The notes beneath the pieces were generated by a model. It did no database searches, was not told where the DNA came from, and saw nothing but the letters and a program-made list of their open reading frames with translations. This document shows, in pieces, positions 3,020 to 38,559 of a stretch of DNA of 45,386 bases; position 1 is the first letter of the stretch, and each line of letters begins with the position of its first letter. Source of the DNA: Methanomicrobiales archaeon (GTDB taxonomy: Archaea; Halobacteriota; Methanomicrobia; Methanomicrobiales; Methanospirillaceae); the NCBI GenBank assembly GCA_013415565.1, contig JAAEET010000007.1:1-45386 (forward strand), in the 5' to 3' direction. The position numbers and the translations under genes were made by a program.

Positions 3020-3358
3020 TTACCTCCCGCACGCGAACTCGATGCCGCGGTTGATACAGGCGATCGCCTCGTTCTCCCGTCCCAGTCTCTTCAGGGTCAG
3101 CCCTTTGTTGAACCAGGCCTCTGATGATTCGGGATCGATCTTCAGCGCTGCGTCATAGCACTGGAGTGCCTCCTCGCACTTTCCGAGGTAGTCAAGGAAG
3201 TTGGCCTTCTCGTTCCAGGCCCCGGCATGCTCCGGGTGGGCTGCAATAGCCCGGTCGAAGTACTCGATGATCTTCTCCGGGTGTTCCTTGTGCTGCGAGT
3301 CTACCGCAAGGCGGTAGTAGTAATCTGCTTCATGGGGGATTTTTCCTACTTTCTTCAT
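3020..3358 (-). CDS. Small TPR protein (paralog 1)
   Basis: TPR consensus (AWNEKANFLDYLGKCEEALQCYDAALKIDPESSEAWFNKG); GGAGGAAT SD upstream of ATG. Confidence 0.85.
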   Translation of the reverse strand: MKKVGKIPHEADYYYRLAVDSQHKEHPEKIIEYFDRAIAAHPEHAGAWNEKANFLDYLGKCEEALQCYDAALKIDPESSEAWFNKGLTLKRLGRENEAIACINRGIEFACGR

Positions 3359-3379: not shown

Positions 3380-3718
3380 TTATCCGATTGCAAGTTCGAT
3401 ACCGCGGTTGATACAGGAAACCGCATCCTCATCCCTGCCCATCTTTTTGAGGGTCAGTCCCTTGTTGAACCAGGCTTCGGCGGCATTCGGATCGATCGTG
3501 AGCGCCCGGTCATAGCATACCAGCGCCATATCCAGCTCGCCCATCTGGTCCAGGAAATTCGCCTTCTCGTTCCAGGCACTTGCATATGCCGGTTCCATGG
3601 CAATGGCCCGGTCAAAGTATTCAAGTACGCTCTGTGGATTCTCCCCGGCTTCCGCATCCAGCGCGAGCCGGAAGAAATACTGGGCATCCGGTGAGATGCT
3701 CATGATTTTTTTCTGCAT
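3380..3718 (-). CDS. Small TPR protein (paralog 2)
   Basis: TPR repeats; closely similar to 3020..3358, including C-terminal CINRGIE motif. Confidence 0.85.
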   Translation of the reverse strand: MQKKIMSISPDAQYFFRLALDAEAGENPQSVLEYFDRAIAMEPAYASAWNEKANFLDQMGELDMALVCYDRALTIDPNAAEAWFNKGLTLKKMGRDEDAVSCINRGIELAIG

Positions 3719-3826
3719 ATTCTGATTCTCCCCTGCCAGGGTGTCCGTTCCGGTTTTTCCCCGACAAAATGAAATAATTGATGTCTTTAAATATATTTTT
3801 GCAATATATTAGCGCGGATATAAATT

Positions 3827-3880
3827 GCATGGCGCTGATGCAGGTAGCATCGATTCCCCAAGTGCATGGCACTGATGCAG
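3827..3880. repeat. Two 17-bp direct repeats GCATGGC(G/A)CTGATGCAG (3827-3843 and 3864-3880), candidate operator
   Basis: 16/17 identical copies, 37 bp apart, upstream of TPR paralog 2; related elements near 8269-8285 and 4385-4392. Confidence 0.6.
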
Positions 3881-4445
3881 TGCAGGATAGAAAAAAAAGC
3901 ACGATTTAATAATGAGAATACATGAACAATAGACAAATGTCAAACACCGTCCCCATCAAGATAGTCTGCAGGAGAAACCGGGAAGGGGAGTGAAACAAGG
4001 AATCCGCGAATTGCCCGGCAGTTATGGTAGCATCTGGCGACCCTCCCGTGGCGAACCGGACCCGGGAATTTTCCGGACGCCCCGCAGCCCGGAATGCAGC
4101 TGACAGGAAAACCGGGCTTGAGCAGCAGTCAGGAGAAGTGTTTGGTGGCGGCGTGGCGGAACCCCACCACGAAGTTACATTGCAGAGGCTTCGGCCAGAA
4201 ATCCGGACATTAGCAGAACCATGCTCGGGGCGCATCGGGCTCTCCGGCGGGAAAAGGAAAAAAGGAGGAGAACATCCGAGAAACGAGAGAGCGTTTCCAG
4301 CCGCCGTCCAGACGGAGATTTCCTGATATGAAGGAGTAATCCTTCGACGGTCTTCCGACGTATCGATCGAATACCTTCACTGTCGCATGGCAAAAACATA
4401 AAAAGCCTGAAAATAGAGTCAACTTAACCTGAAAAGGTGTGAATT

Positions 4446-6515
4446 ATGCAGATGAAATACGTTCAGACAACATGTCCCTACTGCGGAACAGGTTGTACGT
4501 TCAACCTTGTTGTTGAAAACAACAAGGTAACGGGCGTCGCCCCCTACCAGCGTTCCCCGGTAAACCAGGGAAAGGTCTGCCCGAAAGGGACCTATGCCCA
4601 TGAGTTTATCAATCACCCGGATCGCCTGACGAAGCCCCTCATCAAGAAGGACGGCAAGTTTGTTGAAGCAAGCTGGGACGAGGCCTACGATCTGATCGCC
4701 AAGAAGTTCAAGCAATACAAGCCCGACGAGTGCGCCTGTCTCTCTTCTGCCAGAGTCTCCAACGAGGAGAACTACGCCATGATGAAGTTCGCCCGCGGCG
4801 TTCTCAAAACCCGGCATATCGACCACTGCGCACGGCTCTGCCACGCGTCCACGGTCGCCGGGCTCGCGTCAACCTTCGGCTCGGGTGCCATGACCAACTC
4901 CATCCTGGACATCGCGGAGTCGAAGTGCTGTTTCATCATCGGGAGCAACACCTTCGAGCAGCACCCGCTGATCGGCCGAAAAGTGATGCAGGCCAAGGCA
5001 AAAGGCGCGAAGATCATCTACGCCGACCCGCGGTTCACCCCCACGGGGAAGCAGGCCGACCTGTACATGCAATTCCGGTCAGGATCGGATGTCGCCATCT
5101 TCAACGGCCTGATGCAGGAAATCCTTAAGAACGGCTGGGAGGACAAGGAGTTCATCCAGAAGCGGTGTAAGGACTTCGACAAGCTGAAAGAAGAGGTCAT
5201 GAAGCCGGATTACGCGCTTGACAATGTCTCGAAGATCTCCGGAATACCGGCTGCCCAGCTCAAGACCGCTGCCGAGTGGATTGCAAAGGCCGACTCAGCC
5301 TGCATCCTCTACTCGATGGGAATCACCCAGCACACCACCGGTGTGGACAACGTCAGGTCCGTGGCCAACATCCAGATGCTGACCGGGAATCTCGGTAAGC
5401 CGGGCGCCGGTGTGAATGCACTGCGTGGCCAGAACAACGTGCAGGGCGCCTGCGACATGGGTGCGCTGCCGGTGGTCTTCACGGGATACCAGAAGGTCAT
5501 CGACGAGGCGGCCCACAAGAAATTCGCCGACGCCTGGGGATTCCCTGACGGCATCTGCGCCCCCCAGAACGGGTACGAAGTCACGGTCATGATGGATGTC
5601 CTCGCCGACAAGCCCGGCGAGCTCAAGTGCATGTACATCATGGGCGAGAACCCGATGATCTCGGACCCGGACCTCAACCACGTCGCGAAGGCCATGAAGA
5701 ACCTCGAGTTCCTGGTGGTTCAGGATATCTTCCTGACCGAGACCGCCGAGCTGGCTGACGTAGTGCTCCCCGCATGCTGCTATGCCGAGAAAGTCGGTAC
5801 CCAGACCAGCACCGAGCGCCGTGTCCAGATGTGGAGAAAGGCCCAGGAGGCCCCCGGACAGGCAAAGCTCGACTGGGTGATCATGAAGGAGATCGCCACG
5901 AAGATGGGCTACGGGAAGCAGTTCGCCTGGAACAGCGCCGAAGATATCTTCAGCGAGATTGCCAAAGTGACCCCGTCCTATGCCGGGATGAACTACCAGC
6001 GGCTGAACAAGCCCGAGGCGCTGCACTGGCCCTGCCCGGCTGCGGACCACCCGGGAACTCCGATCCTGCACCGGGAGAAGTTCGCCCACCCCGACGGCAT
6101 GGGTGTCATGTTTGCCGTTCCCTACAAGCCCCCGGCAGAAGTTCCTGACGCGGAATACCCGTTCGTCCTGACCACCGGCCGCTGCCTCTGGCACTGGCAC
6201 ACCGGCACCATGACCCGCAGGTCCAAGGATCTTGCCGCGGAAGAACCGACCGGGTGGATCGAGATCAATCCCGACGATGCGAAACAGCTCGGCATTAAGG
6301 ACAAGGAAATGGTCCGGGCAATTACCCGGCGCGGGCAGGTGGATGTTCCGGCACGGGTAACTCCGGACATCATGAAGGGAGTCATGTTCATGCCGTTCCA
6401 CTTCAAGGAATGTGCGGCCAACGTGCTCACCAACAATGCCCTCGATCCCATCGCCAAGATCCCGGAGTACAAGGCCTGTGCTGTGAAAGTGCAGAAGATT
6501 GCGGAGGGGAAGTAA
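4446..6515 (+). CDS. fdhA: Formate dehydrogenase alpha subunit (molybdopterin oxidoreductase, F420-dependent type)
   Basis: CPYCGTGC 4Fe-4S motif; molybdopterin signatures; DHCARLCHAS active-site region with Cys rather than Sec; followed by fdhB. Confidence 0.95.
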   Translation: MQMKYVQTTCPYCGTGCTFNLVVENNKVTGVAPYQRSPVNQGKVCPKGTYAHEFINHPDRLTKPLIKKDGKFVEASWDEAYDLIAKKFKQYKPDECACLSSARVSNEENYAMMKFARGVLKTRHIDHCARLCHASTVAGLASTFGSGAMTNSILDIAESKCCFIIGSNTFEQHPLIGRKVMQAKAKGAKIIYADPRFTPTGKQADLYMQFRSGSDVAIFNGLMQEILKNGWEDKEFIQKRCKDFDKLKEEVMKPDYALDNVSKISGIPAAQLKTAAEWIAKADSACILYSMGITQHTTGVDNVRSVANIQMLTGNLGKPGAGVNALRGQNNVQGACDMGALPVVFTGYQKVIDEAAHKKFADAWGFPDGICAPQNGYEVTVMMDVLADKPGELKCMYIMGENPMISDPDLNHVAKAMKNLEFLVVQDIFLTETAELADVVLPACCYAEKVGTQTSTERRVQMWRKAQEAPGQAKLDWVIMKEIATKMGYGKQFAWNSAEDIFSEIAKVTPSYAGMNYQRLNKPEALHWPCPAADHPGTPILHREKFAHPDGMGVMFAVPYKPPAEVPDAEYPFVLTTGRCLWHWHTGTMTRRSKDLAAEEPTGWIEINPDDAKQLGIKDKEMVRAITRRGQVDVPARVTPDIMKGVMFMPFHFKECAANVLTNNALDPIAKIPEYKACAVKVQKIAEGK

Positions 6516-6516
6516 T

Positions 6517-7689
6517 ATGGGACTCTTTTCATCCAAACCGGAGATGAAGAAAGGCGATATGGTCTACGCATGGACAAACGACCAGGATATCGCCAAGAAA
6601 GCTGAATGCGGCGGTGCGGTCACCACGCTCCTCAAGTATGCTCTCGAGAACAAGATGGTGGATGCCGTACTCGTCATAAAGAGGGGACAGGACATCTACG
6701 ATGCAGTCCCCACACTGGTGACCGATCCGAAGGACCTCAAGGATACGGCAGGATCCCTCCACTGTGGAACCGTGCTTCTCGCCAACGTGGTGAAGAAGCG
6801 GTTCAACGGTGCAAAGACCATGAAGATCGGAATGACCGTCAAGGGCTGCGATCTCATGGCGCTCCAGGAGCTCGCCAAGCGAAAGGAAGTCAATCTGGAC
6901 AATCTCCTCCTCATCGGTGTCAACTGCGGTGGGACGGTCAGCCCCATCATGGCCCGGTACATGATCACCGAGAAGTACGGCGTGAATCCCGATTCCGTCC
7001 ACAAAGAGGAGATCGACAAGGGACAGTTCATCATCGAGTACGAAGGCGGCCACAAGGGCATCTCCATCGATGAACTCGAAGAGGAAGGATTCGGGCGGAG
7101 AACCAACTGCCGCCGCTGCCTCTACAAGGTTCCCCGGCAGGCTGACCTGGCCTGTGGAAACTGGGGCGTCATCGGTGAGAAAGCCGGCAAGGCGACCTTT
7201 GTTGAAGTCTGCAGCGACAAGGGGGCAGACCTCCTGTCGAAAGCGGTAAAGGGTGGAGCACTCGCCACCGAGGCACCGATTCCGAAGGGAATTGAGATCC
7301 GCGGGAAGGTCGAGGGCGCCATGCTGAAGCTCGGCGAGAAGTGGCGGAAGAAGGATTTCGCACGGCTGGGCAAAGACCCCTGGACCATGATCAACAAAGA
7401 GACTTCGCGGTGCATCAAGTGCTACTCATGCATCGAGAACTGCCCGGTCTGCTTCCCGGTTGCGGAATCACTCAAGAAGTCCTATATGATCGAACCTGGC
7501 CAGGTGCCGCCGAACCCGATGTTCCACCTCCGCAGGTTTGCCCACATCTCTGACTCCTGTGTCAACTGCGGTCAGTGTGAGGAGCTGTGCGCGATGGACA
7601 TCCCGCTCGCCTTGTTCTCTCATGCGATCAGGGCCGAATCCGATGTATCATTCGAGCCGAAGCTGGGCAAGCCTGCCTACTCAAACTAA
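6517..7689 (+). CDS. fdhB: Formate dehydrogenase beta subunit (F420-dependent, FrhB-like)
   Basis: Coenzyme F420 hydrogenase/dehydrogenase beta signature, two 4Fe-4S motifs (CIKCYSCIENCP, CVNCGQCEELCAMDIP); ATG 1 nt after the fdhA stop. Confidence 0.95.
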   Translation: MGLFSSKPEMKKGDMVYAWTNDQDIAKKAECGGAVTTLLKYALENKMVDAVLVIKRGQDIYDAVPTLVTDPKDLKDTAGSLHCGTVLLANVVKKRFNGAKTMKIGMTVKGCDLMALQELAKRKEVNLDNLLLIGVNCGGTVSPIMARYMITEKYGVNPDSVHKEEIDKGQFIIEYEGGHKGISIDELEEEGFGRRTNCRRCLYKVPRQADLACGNWGVIGEKAGKATFVEVCSDKGADLLSKAVKGGALATEAPIPKGIEIRGKVEGAMLKLGEKWRKKDFARLGKDPWTMINKETSRCIKCYSCIENCPVCFPVAESLKKSYMIEPGQVPPNPMFHLRRFAHISDSCVNCGQCEELCAMDIPLALFSHAIRAESDVSFEPKLGKPAYSN

Positions 7690-7776: not shown

Positions 7777-8214
7777 CTATCTGCCCAGTGCAAGATCGAT
7801 CCCGTGGTTGATGCAGGCATAGGCCTCGGATTCGCGGCCGATGCGTCTCAAAACAAGTCCCTTGTTATACCAGCTTTCTGCATCGTAGGGGTCGAGCTTC
7901 AACGCCTCGTCATAGCAGGCAAGCGCATCGGCATACCTTCCGAGTTCATCGAGGCAGTTTCCTTTCTCATGCCAGGCACCCGCGAAATGAGGATCGGTTG
8001 AGAGTGCCCGGTCAATACAGTCAAGGGCATGCAGGTGATCACCTGCATGCATCGCTTGATGCGCCATCCGGAAAAAATAGTCAGCGTTGTGTGAGATTGT
8101 AACGACCGTTTTTTTTTTCCCGTATTGGCTATAATATTCGTAAGATTTCCCCCGTTCAGTGCCATGGGGTTTCTCCCACGGCAGAGAAACGTGATAGGTG
8201 CATTTAAATAACAT
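7777..8214 (-). CDS. Small TPR protein (paralog 3); 5' end ambiguous (possible frameshift at A10 tract)
   Basis: ADYFFRMA...AWHEKGNCLDELGRYADALACYDEALKLDPYDAESWYNKG...CINHGIDLALGR aligns with the two other TPR genes; no start codon at the homologous position in frame. Confidence 0.7.
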   Translation of the reverse strand: MLFKCTYHVSLPWEKPHGTERGKSYEYYSQYGKKKTVVTISHNADYFFRMAHQAMHAGDHLHALDCIDRALSTDPHFAGAWHEKGNCLDELGRYADALACYDEALKLDPYDAESWYNKGLVLRRIGRESEAYACINHGIDLALGR

Positions 8215-8268
8215 TTTGCAATATAATTCTGTTAACATACATTGACGGGCAACGAGTATGCCAGCATT

Positions 8269-8285
8269 GCATGGCACAAATGCAC
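8269..8285. promoter_or_regulatory. Candidate operator GCATGGCACAAATGCAC between divergent TPR paralog 3 and PAS regulator, followed by inverted CCATGC at 8288-8293
   Basis: Matches the 3827/3864 repeats at GCATGGCAC..ATGCA. Confidence 0.45.
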
Positions 8286-8375: not shown

Positions 8376-11006
8376 ATGGAAAATCATGTCGACCAGCGGA
8401 TCAGCATGATACGGGATCTCCTGAAATCCCACCCACGAGGTCTCTCGATCTCGGAGATAGCTGACCAGCTCGGTTTAAGGAGACATGTCGTGTCAAAGGA
8501 TCTCGGATATCTTCACCGGATGGGTCAGGTGGAACTGCAGACCATCGGAACCAGTAAAGTCTACACCTATACCACCAAGATCCCCATCACCGGTATTCTT
8601 GACTACTTCTCAGACATGATCCTCGTCCTCGATGAGAATCATGCCATTCTTGAAGTCAATGATCCCCTCCTCCGCACGGTACACCTCACACGTGACGACC
8701 TGATCGGGAAACGGATCGACATCCAACCCTGGCCGCTCATTTCCGACCTGAAACCGGGAGCCTTTGAAGAGGAAGGGTTCGAAGACCTGAACATCTGTCT
8801 TCCTTCCCTCGATGATCCGGAGGCAATCCATCATTTCAGGGTCAGATACGTTCCCATGGTGTTCGAGGACACTTCCCGGGGAATGATCATTTTTATCGAG
8901 GATACTACCGAGCAGACCCGCTACCGTGAGGCCTTCCTGCTCTCTGAAGCTCACTATAAGGCGATCGTAGAGTACCAGACCGAGCTCATATTCCGTTTTC
9001 TCCCTGACGGGACTATCACCTACACGAACTGGAGATGTGCGAAAACGTTCGGGGCGACCGAATCCGGTATCCGGGGAATGGCCATCTTCTCATACTTTCC
9101 GGAACAGGAGGCAGGTCGGTTCAGAGACGCCATCGCGGGCCTTTCTGCGAAATATCCCTTCATCCGGATTACCTCTCTTCTGGAAACGGTCGAGGGAAGG
9201 CGACCCTTCTCCATGACGATACAGGCAATCTGGAACGAAGCAGGCCGGTTGCTCGGATACCATGGCATTGCCCGGGATATCACGGCGGAATTAAAAATTG
9301 AGGAGGAGAGGAAAACCCATGCCGGCCACATGGAATTCCTCTGCCGGAAATCTTCCGAATTCCTGACGACATCCCGTGAAGAAGACTTGATCGAGGACCT
9401 CTCATCCGGGCTTTCCGAACTGGTCTCATCGGCCGTGCAGTTCATATTCACCTACGACGAGAAGGAAGGTGAAATGGAGGCCCGGACCGTCAGGGACGAG
9501 GATGGCAGAGAGCTTCTTGAGACCGTTTTTTCTGGCGGGTCGATCAGGTTCCATGTACCGCCTTCCCTCCTCCGTGGTGAGCATGAATTTGAAGCGGCGA
9601 TTCGCGGAGAACTCGCCGAGATCTCTCATGACCTGGTAGTATCCATACTCGGTGATGCTGTTCATCAGCATATCGAAGATGCAATCGGAAAGAGGACGAC
9701 GTATGTCACGTTGATGAACTGGGAAGGCAAAATTGTCGGAGCGGTGGCAATCTGTGTTCCGCCCGGCACGACCCTTGAAAACCGGAGCCTTCTCGAGACG
9801 TTCATCAGGATGGGGGCACTCTCCCTGCAACGGATTATGACAGGGGCGTCCCTTGCACAGAGTAACGACCGGTTCCGGATCATCGCTGAAACGGCACCAC
9901 TCCCCGTCGCGATTATCAGCCCGGATGGCAGGTACCTCTTCATCAACGACAAATTCATTGAAACCTTCGGGTATACCCTCGAGGATATCCCGGACGGGAG
10001 CAAGTGGTTCCTGCATGCATTCCCGAATGGCGATACCATGCGGAATGCCCGTAACCTCTGGATCAGCGACCTGAAAAAATCATCCGTCGGAGAGATTCGA
10101 CCCCGGCAGTTCACCGTCCGGTGCAGGGATGGTTCATTTAAGGCGATTATTTTCCGACCTGTCACCCTGAGGGACGGATGCCAGCTGGTTCTCTACGAGG
10201 ACATTTCAGAGCGGGAGGAGGCGGAGAAGGACAGGAATCTCCTGGCCGAAATCGTCCGGTCCTCGCACGATGCCATTATCGGGATGACGGTGACCGGAAA
10301 GATCCAGACCTGGAACCCGGGGGCCCAGCGCATCTATGGATATTCACCAGGGGAAGCTGTCGGGAAGGATATCGATCTCATCTTCCCTGAGTCGCGGCTG
10401 CAGGAAAAAGACAGACTCCTCGAGAAGGTCTCGCAGGGTGAATTCATATCCGATTTCGAGACCCAGCGGGTACGGAAGGACGGGAGAATTATCGATGTTT
10501 CGGTCACCATTTCGCCCATTTTCGACCGGAACAATAATATCATCGGGACATCGACCATCGTCAAGGATATTTCGGCAAGGAAGGCGGAAGAGCGGCTGCA
10601 GGAGCTTGAATCCCAGTACCGGGACATGGTTGATTCCATCAATGTCGGAGTCTACCGCAGTACCGGCGATCCTGAAGGGCGTTTCCTCTGGGGAAATACC
10701 TCACTGGTCCGGATCCTGGGGTACCCCTCTATCCAGTCGGTGCGGGAAGTGCCGGTATCGGATCTCTTTCTCAGGGCTCATGGAAGAGACAACCTGCTGA
10801 AAGAACTGAGGGAAGAGGGGTTCGTCCGGAACAGGGAGATCCTCCTGAAACGGCGGGACGGCACGGTCGCCTATGTCCTGGTGACCGCCCTTGCAACCTT
10901 CGACAACACCGGAGAGATATCTTACATCAACGGGATTGTCGAAGACGTGACCGAACAGCGGATCCTCGCCCGGAAACTTGCCTCCCTGACGGGTCCGGGT
11001 TCCTGA
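8376..11006 (+). CDS. HTH-PAS multidomain one-component sensor/regulator (several PAS domains, GAF-like middle, no histidine kinase domain)
   Basis: N-terminal winged-HTH (RGLSISEIADQLGLRRHVVSKDLGYLHRMGQVEL), then repeated PAS signatures (VLDENHAILEVND, SPDGRYLFINDKFIETFGYTLEDI, TWNPGAQRIYGYSPGEAVGKDI); ends soon after the last PAC. Confidence 0.85.
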   Translation: MENHVDQRISMIRDLLKSHPRGLSISEIADQLGLRRHVVSKDLGYLHRMGQVELQTIGTSKVYTYTTKIPITGILDYFSDMILVLDENHAILEVNDPLLRTVHLTRDDLIGKRIDIQPWPLISDLKPGAFEEEGFEDLNICLPSLDDPEAIHHFRVRYVPMVFEDTSRGMIIFIEDTTEQTRYREAFLLSEAHYKAIVEYQTELIFRFLPDGTITYTNWRCAKTFGATESGIRGMAIFSYFPEQEAGRFRDAIAGLSAKYPFIRITSLLETVEGRRPFSMTIQAIWNEAGRLLGYHGIARDITAELKIEEERKTHAGHMEFLCRKSSEFLTTSREEDLIEDLSSGLSELVSSAVQFIFTYDEKEGEMEARTVRDEDGRELLETVFSGGSIRFHVPPSLLRGEHEFEAAIRGELAEISHDLVVSILGDAVHQHIEDAIGKRTTYVTLMNWEGKIVGAVAICVPPGTTLENRSLLETFIRMGALSLQRIMTGASLAQSNDRFRIIAETAPLPVAIISPDGRYLFINDKFIETFGYTLEDIPDGSKWFLHAFPNGDTMRNARNLWISDLKKSSVGEIRPRQFTVRCRDGSFKAIIFRPVTLRDGCQLVLYEDISEREEAEKDRNLLAEIVRSSHDAIIGMTVTGKIQTWNPGAQRIYGYSPGEAVGKDIDLIFPESRLQEKDRLLEKVSQGEFISDFETQRVRKDGRIIDVSVTISPIFDRNNNIIGTSTIVKDISARKAEERLQELESQYRDMVDSINVGVYRSTGDPEGRFLWGNTSLVRILGYPSIQSVREVPVSDLFLRAHGRDNLLKELREEGFVRNREILLKRRDGTVAYVLVTALATFDNTGEISYINGIVEDVTEQRILARKLASLTGPGS

Positions 11007-37971: not shown

Positions 37972-38352
37972 CTAGCGGGATTTCCGGGCAATTGCCGCCA
38001 GGGCTTCACGGGCCGCCTGTTTCACACGGTCGTCCTCGTCCATGCAGGCCCGGAAGAGAGGCTCTACCGCCTTCCTATCGCCGAGTTTCCCGAGAGCGGT
38101 GATCGCCGCAATCAGGTTATCCCGATCGGCAGACATGAGAAAAGAATTAAGTTCCGGAGAAAAGACCGTTGCATCAGGCGTGCCTGATCCTTTGACCGGA
38201 AGAACGGAGCCGACAGGCTCAACGGCTCGCGTATAATACTGTTGTGAGTTTTCCTCTGGTTGCATCCGGGTATCGGGAACGGGATGTGTCAGGTCTGGTT
38301 TTTCCAGCATCTCCGGCCCCATCCTGTTCATCAAACCCCCCTGTTCCCTCAT
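37972..38352 (-). CDS. HEAT-repeat protein, small
   Basis: NLIAAITALGKLGDRKAVEPLFRACMDEDDRVKQAAREALAAIA. Confidence 0.7.
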   Translation of the reverse strand: MREQGGLMNRMGPEMLEKPDLTHPVPDTRMQPEENSQQYYTRAVEPVGSVLPVKGSGTPDATVFSPELNSFLMSADRDNLIAAITALGKLGDRKAVEPLFRACMDEDDRVKQAAREALAAIARKSR

Positions 38353-38559
38353 CCGAGGGCAAACTGATAGTCGATTTTTGGGTTAAAATGTTTGCGCCAC
38401 GCATCTTTGCACGGCACTTCCGGCCTATGATCGGCCAAGGATCGTCACGGCGTGCCGGAACCTGTCAGCTGCATCCGCTACCAGGGCGTCCGGAGAAAAG
38501 ATGTTGATGCCACCTTGATTTTTGCTGCGGTTGATTGGATTTGAAGGGAAAGAGTGATG

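Follow-up and report, generated by a model that had tools for sequence, protein, structure and literature searches.

Genes at the locus

The window, by which we mean the whole stretch of 45,386 nucleotides analysed here from a Methanomicrobiales archaeon, carries three genes for 112-aa TPR proteins, a formate dehydrogenase pair and a large HTH-PAS gene in the order TPR1-TPR2 (minus strand), fdhA-fdhB (plus), TPR3 (minus) and HTH-PAS (plus). TPR2 (3383..3718; Pfam TPR_1 and others) has TPR1 (3023..3358; Pfam TPR) downstream of it, an order maintained in 7 genomes, and TPR3 (7780..8115; Pfam TPR), which is divergent from the HTH-PAS gene, lies next to the PAS gene in relatives too. The alpha subunit of formate dehydrogenase is encoded by fdhA (4446..6515; above the cutoff of NCBIfam TIGR01591), and the F420-reducing beta subunit by fdhB (6526..7689; Pfam FrhB_FdhB N and C domains). 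In other genera, fdhB-fdhA-TPR stands divergent from HTH-PAS, so the association of these genes is old.

The HTH-PAS gene (8376..11006, plus strand) encodes 876 aa and, from Pfam matches and a structure model, is predicted to specify a one-component regulator. HTH_IclR and HTH_11 match its N terminus at residues 13-53, below their curated cutoffs, and PAS_9 and PAS match several stretches. The predicted structure comprises a wHTH-like fold (residues 1-65) followed by PAS, PAS, a GAF-like domain and three further PAS domains; the GAF-like label follows from secondary structure, with no family match. The PAS part of PpsR was one of the top matches in a structure search, and a sequence search for solved relatives of the HTH gave weak matches (best E 0.023). 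The Pfam scan detected no HisKA, HATPase or other kinase family, no REC, and neither a BAT nor an HTH_10 domain. As in a one-component regulator, HTH and PAS are thus joined in one chain that is free of kinase and receiver domains, and palindromic candidate operators, recognized by sequence only, lie at its own promoter and at those of its putative targets. Close relatives occur in Methanolinea, Methanoregulaceae and other Methanomicrobiales MAGs.

The repeated element is a 21-bp dyad

The original prediction described four copies of a repeat, upstream of TPR2, upstream of fdhA and between TPR3 and HTH-PAS, and proposed that the neighbouring HTH-PAS protein might bind it as its operator. All four sequences are present where they had been placed; three copies (3826-3842, 3863-3879 and 8268-8284) are strong, whereas the fourth, at 4385, is weak and did not hold up (see below). 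The window matches the extended pattern TGCATGGCRCNNATGCA three times, whereas 100 dinucleotide-preserving shuffles gave no match. Genome-wide, the motif is rare: in a search of the 1.69-Mb genome allowing up to 2 mismatches, the exact matches to the repeat were the three window copies only. A 3-mismatch version was not enriched (11 matches versus 8.1 expected), so that no weight is given to weak look-alikes and the three strong copies alone count. Searching the genome with a degenerate IUPAC consensus at 2 mismatches yielded 406 matches, not much more than the 316 of a reversed control, and this consensus was replaced by a profile. The profile scan covered 37 genomes; among the matches listed, those in this genome number three, all in the window (3822, 3859 and 8262), and weaker sites, such as that at 38402, fell outside the matches listed.

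Comparison with relatives (31 unique sites) identifies the conserved unit as the 21-bp dyad CAnnAnTGCAYGGCAnTnnTG, in which TGC-N3-GCA forms the inner arms. The repeat noticed earlier is therefore real, but its register was slightly off and its exact form is superseded by this unit. The dyad centre is the T of TGCA-T-GGCA, which places the three strong window sites, all given on the plus strand, at 3820..3840 (ATAAATTGCATGGCGCTGATG, 22.4 bits), 3857..3877 (CCCAAGTGCATGGCACTGATG, 27.1 bits) and 8262..8282 (CAGCATTGCATGGCACAAATG, 26.6 bits), that is, at 22-27 bits on the site matrix. Conservation is symmetric outside the core, at positions that played no part in site selection: C1 (26/31) pairs with G21 (23/31), and A5 (28/31) with T17 (24/31). 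The right-hand ATGCA of the earlier pattern is poorly conserved and reflects positions T20-G21 plus chance. When each promoter class was left out in turn, sites of at least 12 bits were recovered in 7/7 TPR2, 15/17 TPR3 and 7/11 fdhA regions, compared with at most 0.7% when column-permuted matrices were used.

The element might also be read as a sigma-54-like promoter, TGGCAC-N-TGCA, in that TGGCACTGATGCA superficially resembles the -24/-12 consensus. However, one base is missing from the GG-GC spacing, the host, an archaeon, has BRE/TATA promoters, and the centre of the conserved dyad lies elsewhere; archaea are not known to have sigma-54. The resemblance was rejected on spacing and taxonomy, and we regard this reading as having practically no likelihood.

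Dyads at TPR and HEAT-repeat promoters

Conservation upstream of orthologues bears out the original prediction at both TPR promoters, where the core TGC-M-Y-GGC keeps a fixed position in the 7 TPR2 and 11 TPR3/PAS regions compared. The proximal dyad of the TPR2-TPR1 promoter (3820..3840) can be aligned in 7/7 TPR2 promoters of the genus, some of which have the degraded form TGCATTGCA. The presumptive BRE (GCAAAA before TATATTTAA, minus strand) follows ~17 bp downstream of this dyad. The distal dyad (3857..3877), which is a top profile match of the genome, lies 37 bp from the proximal one, with identical spacing in relatives (7 TPR2 promoters). Between the divergent TPR3 and HTH-PAS genes, TGC[A/C][T/C]GGCA is found at about a fixed place in 11/11 aligned intergenic regions, three of them from other genera. 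With further loci included, the core is present in 13/17, being absent from its usual place in four Methanolinea-like regions (L137, L144, L146 and L148) of the 17 loci compared.

The TPR2 and TPR3 promoters have a longer stretch, TTTGCAATATA, in common and may therefore be paralogous, which leaves room for the view that the similarity of their dyads is a functionless remnant of duplication of a TPR gene together with its promoter. By contrast, genes unrelated to these (fdhA, HEAT and HTH-PAS without TPR) are preceded by the dyad as well, and the dyad core is preserved where the flanking DNA has diverged. A mere remnant is very improbable.

Separately, a conserved block, TTTGCAATATAAT (minus strand ATTATATTGCAAA), is common to the TPR2 and TPR3 promoters at the BRE (3797-3810 and 8213-8226), and the AT-rich part upstream of this BRE may be a second conserved element. 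Another genome (L125, G024:C1) has a tandem array of three small TPR genes that is divergent from an HTH-PAS gene, and TCAATGCCCGGCAT lies ~163 bp upstream of each of the three.

Two further window sites were absent from the original prediction, one of 13.5 bits at 4006-4026 (discussed with fdhA below) and one of 19.2 bits at 38402..38422 (plus strand, CATCTTTGCACGGCACTTCCG), which was held out of training. The latter lies upstream of a gene for a small HEAT-repeat protein (37972..38352, minus strand; Pfam HEAT_2). This dyad is kept upstream of the relatives of the gene in six genomes (G002, G003, G004, G007, G011 and G018) and takes the form TGCCTTGCA in G001, and its conservation makes the HEAT-repeat gene a probable member of the regulon.

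Dyads were also seen beside other genes. In three genomes, a dyad, CTACAGTGCGTGGCAATGATG (19.4 bits in G000), lies ~100 bp past the stop of another HTH-PAS paralogue (G000:C53:2952 (L180), G002:C149:1468 (L225) and G007:C7:12436 (L237)); in G000 it precedes a small putative membrane-protein ORF. Strong dyads occur near the start of an AIRS-family gene at L227, L228 and L236 (G006, G010 and G005, respectively); this gene is related to ThiL/SelD/HypE, below all family cutoffs, and on the position of its dyads is a possible extra target in a subclade. At L233 (G038:C2:156637-156656), a dyad separates an HTH-PAS gene from an archaeal type IV pilin gene, the latter ~115 bp downstream of the dyad, and the same 7 kb also contains a relative of FdhB.

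The formate dehydrogenase promoter

The copy that had been claimed for fdhA (4385..4399, plus strand, GCATGGCAAAAACAT) is not counted here as an operator; the site matrix gives it 4.6 bits and the profile model 4.2 bits (E 5.4). It overlaps GCAAAAACATAAAAA, the likely BRE/TATA of fdhA, and is common to the closest relative, G007, only; in G007 the entire fdhA core promoter is conserved along with it, and in G001 the copy is broken. A better operator candidate in the TPR2-fdhA intergenic region, and potentially a third operator, is the site at 4006..4026 (plus strand, GCGAATTGCCCGGCAGTTATG), which has an aligned 13.2-bit copy in G007 inside an otherwise diverged stretch and is absent from G001. 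As fdhA of the window has no good proximal site, fdhA or fdhAB is an uncertain target in this genome.

Elsewhere, the sites are stronger candidates. In eight related loci, fdhA is preceded by TGCATGGCA at -135 to -138, in several cases with an inverted partner at -162, and a 20.8-bit site whose sequence is outside the training set is found at -145 of fdhA in G003; these positions mark the fdhA promoter in other lineages as a good predicted target. Paralogues of fdhA at other loci in the genus mostly have no dyad site, so fdhA is not a general target. A second type of fdhA (L299, L301, L302, L303, L304, L310, L316 and L317) has its own conserved promoter, TGTTAATCATTACTGTTAAATAAGG, from which the dyad is absent, and this suggests that the two formate dehydrogenases may be under separate control.

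Association of the dyad with HTH-PAS genes

In other families of the order, profile matches lie ~80-100 bp upstream of HTH-PAS paralogues, at several of which neither TPR nor fdh genes are nearby. The association was quantified for 72 other HTH-PAS genes of the order, defined by protein matches reaching the HTH and omitting direct orthologues of the window protein except that of G013, the site of which is outside the training set. In 38/72 of these, the 400 bp upstream contain a site scoring 8 bits or more, compared with a mean of 3.7 and a maximum of 11 for 30 permuted matrices on the same genes, and with 13/220 control genes (p ~4e-17), the top four controls being from loci that had been chosen for a match, so that the controls are enriched for such loci. 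About half of the 72 paralogues have no such site within that distance. With no motif supplied, TGC-N3-GCA ranks first among 1088 gapped palindromes in the 72 upstream regions (37 regions versus 4.8 expected; z 14.7). The upstream sites cluster near -90/-73 and -43.

The form of the site varies with the recognition helix. The variant TGCACTGCA stands at -31 to -41 of the genes for all four proteins with an H-R-N helix (4/4); three of the genomes concerned also encode N-R-N paralogues, and these have TGCAYGGCA or TGCAAGGCA. Proteins with an N-K-N/H helix have no matrix match (0/6; Fisher p 0.009, kinship ignored). Because the H-R-N proteins look orthologous, their contrast with the N-R-N paralogues may represent a single evolutionary event. 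Outside Methanomicrobiales, TGCATTGCA or TGCCTTGCA occurs well upstream, at -189 to -270, in three genomes that belong to a single family, and one of these genomes has a perfect palindrome, CAGCTTTGCAAGGCAAAGCTG; as sequence matches, they are suggestive only of an operator that reaches beyond the order.

These observations also bear on whether a different, global regulator binds the dyads and controls HTH-PAS, TPR genes and fdhA alike, as might be supposed from the several types of gene that dyads precede (HTH-PAS, TPR, fdhA, HEAT and AIRS-family). Against such a regulator, dyads within one and the same genome differ according to the recognition helix of the neighbouring protein, N-K-N/H members have no dyad, and at some loci HTH-PAS is the sole downstream gene start near the site. 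Control of all dyad genes by a global regulator is the less likely explanation, and we consider it unlikely in itself. The rarity of the motif, its footprint upstream of orthologues, the sites upstream of paralogues and the helix-linked variants instead give strong support to the operator hypothesis for the adjacent HTH-PAS protein, as far as sequence can speak to it.

Predicted mode of action

Taken together, it is highly probable that the HTH-PAS protein encoded at 8376-11006 binds the dyads, autoregulates, and controls TPR and HEAT genes as well as fdhA of relatives, with activation the likelier direction. The protein would probably dimerise through its PAS domains and coiled segments, such that the two winged helices of the dimer are set on the 21-bp dyad CAnnAnTGC-N3-GCAnTnnTG. 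Site 8262 would serve in autoregulation and also act on the divergent TPR3, TPR2-TPR1 would be controlled via the two tandem dyads, the HEAT-repeat gene via 38402, and fdhA of relatives via the dyad at about -136/-145. The PAS and GAF-like domains may sense a redox, formate or H2 signal.

Archaeal activators usually bind upstream of BRE, and the location of the dyads upstream of BRE/TATA, rather than on it, makes activation the likelier direction. The HTH-PAS protein might instead bind the same dyads and repress its target promoters. Regulators often repress their own genes, and many sites upstream of HTH-PAS genes lie at approximately -40 to -49, where they would adjoin or cover the BRE expected for a leaderless promoter; by their position, the sites at about -43 in other family members could act in repression. 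However, at TPR2, TPR3, fdhA and HEAT the site precedes the BRE and so occupies the usual place of archaeal activators. Repression of the target promoters is possible, albeit somewhat doubtful.

Beyond activation by the window protein, a wider reading is plausible but tentative: a large family of archaeal wHTH-PAS one-component regulators, other orders included, might possess an ancestral autoregulatory TGC-N3-GCA operator, the centre of which co-evolves with the recognition helix, and one member of this family might tie formate dehydrogenase expression to TPR/HEAT scaffolds. If so, these small scaffold proteins might serve to arrange complexes for formate-dependent electron transfer.

Comparison with known systems

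Hydrogenotrophic Methanomicrobiales use H2 and formate in syntrophic communities, and in these methane-producing archaea a large HTH-PAS family appears, from its upstream sites, to control its own genes, those for small TPR and HEAT proteins and the formate dehydrogenase of relatives. The analysis yields a concrete predicted operator with mutable bases, a candidate regulator and a short list of targets, together with a candidate recognition code for a family that has several members in many Methanomicrobiales genomes, and provides a functional context for the small TPR and HEAT proteins. In open-licence literature we found no description of the dyad motif, of the HTH-PAS regulator or its family operator, or of any regulator of Methanomicrobiales formate dehydrogenase genes. 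The kind of system is known, and the operator of this family and its targets appear undescribed in that literature.

The closest bacterial parallel considered is PpsR/CrtJ, in which several PAS domains and a DNA-binding HTH likewise share one protein that has a palindromic operator. The window protein differs in being archaeal, with an N-terminal, winged HTH that is weakly HTH_11/IclR-like, and its predicted dyad is TGC-N3-GCA, whereas the PpsR operator is TGT-N12-ACA. Sensory regulators have also been described in archaea (PMC5847659). Haloarchaeal Bat-type and HTH-REC regulators resemble the HTH-PAS protein in joining archaeal sensory PAS/GAF or REC domains to an HTH (PMC5847659), but the latter has no BAT, HTH_10 or receiver domain in the Pfam scan. 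FilI/FilR and LtrK/LtrR of methanogens are characterised sensory two-component systems (PMC5847659); by contrast, the HTH-PAS protein, in which no kinase domain was found, would combine sensing and DNA binding in one chain.
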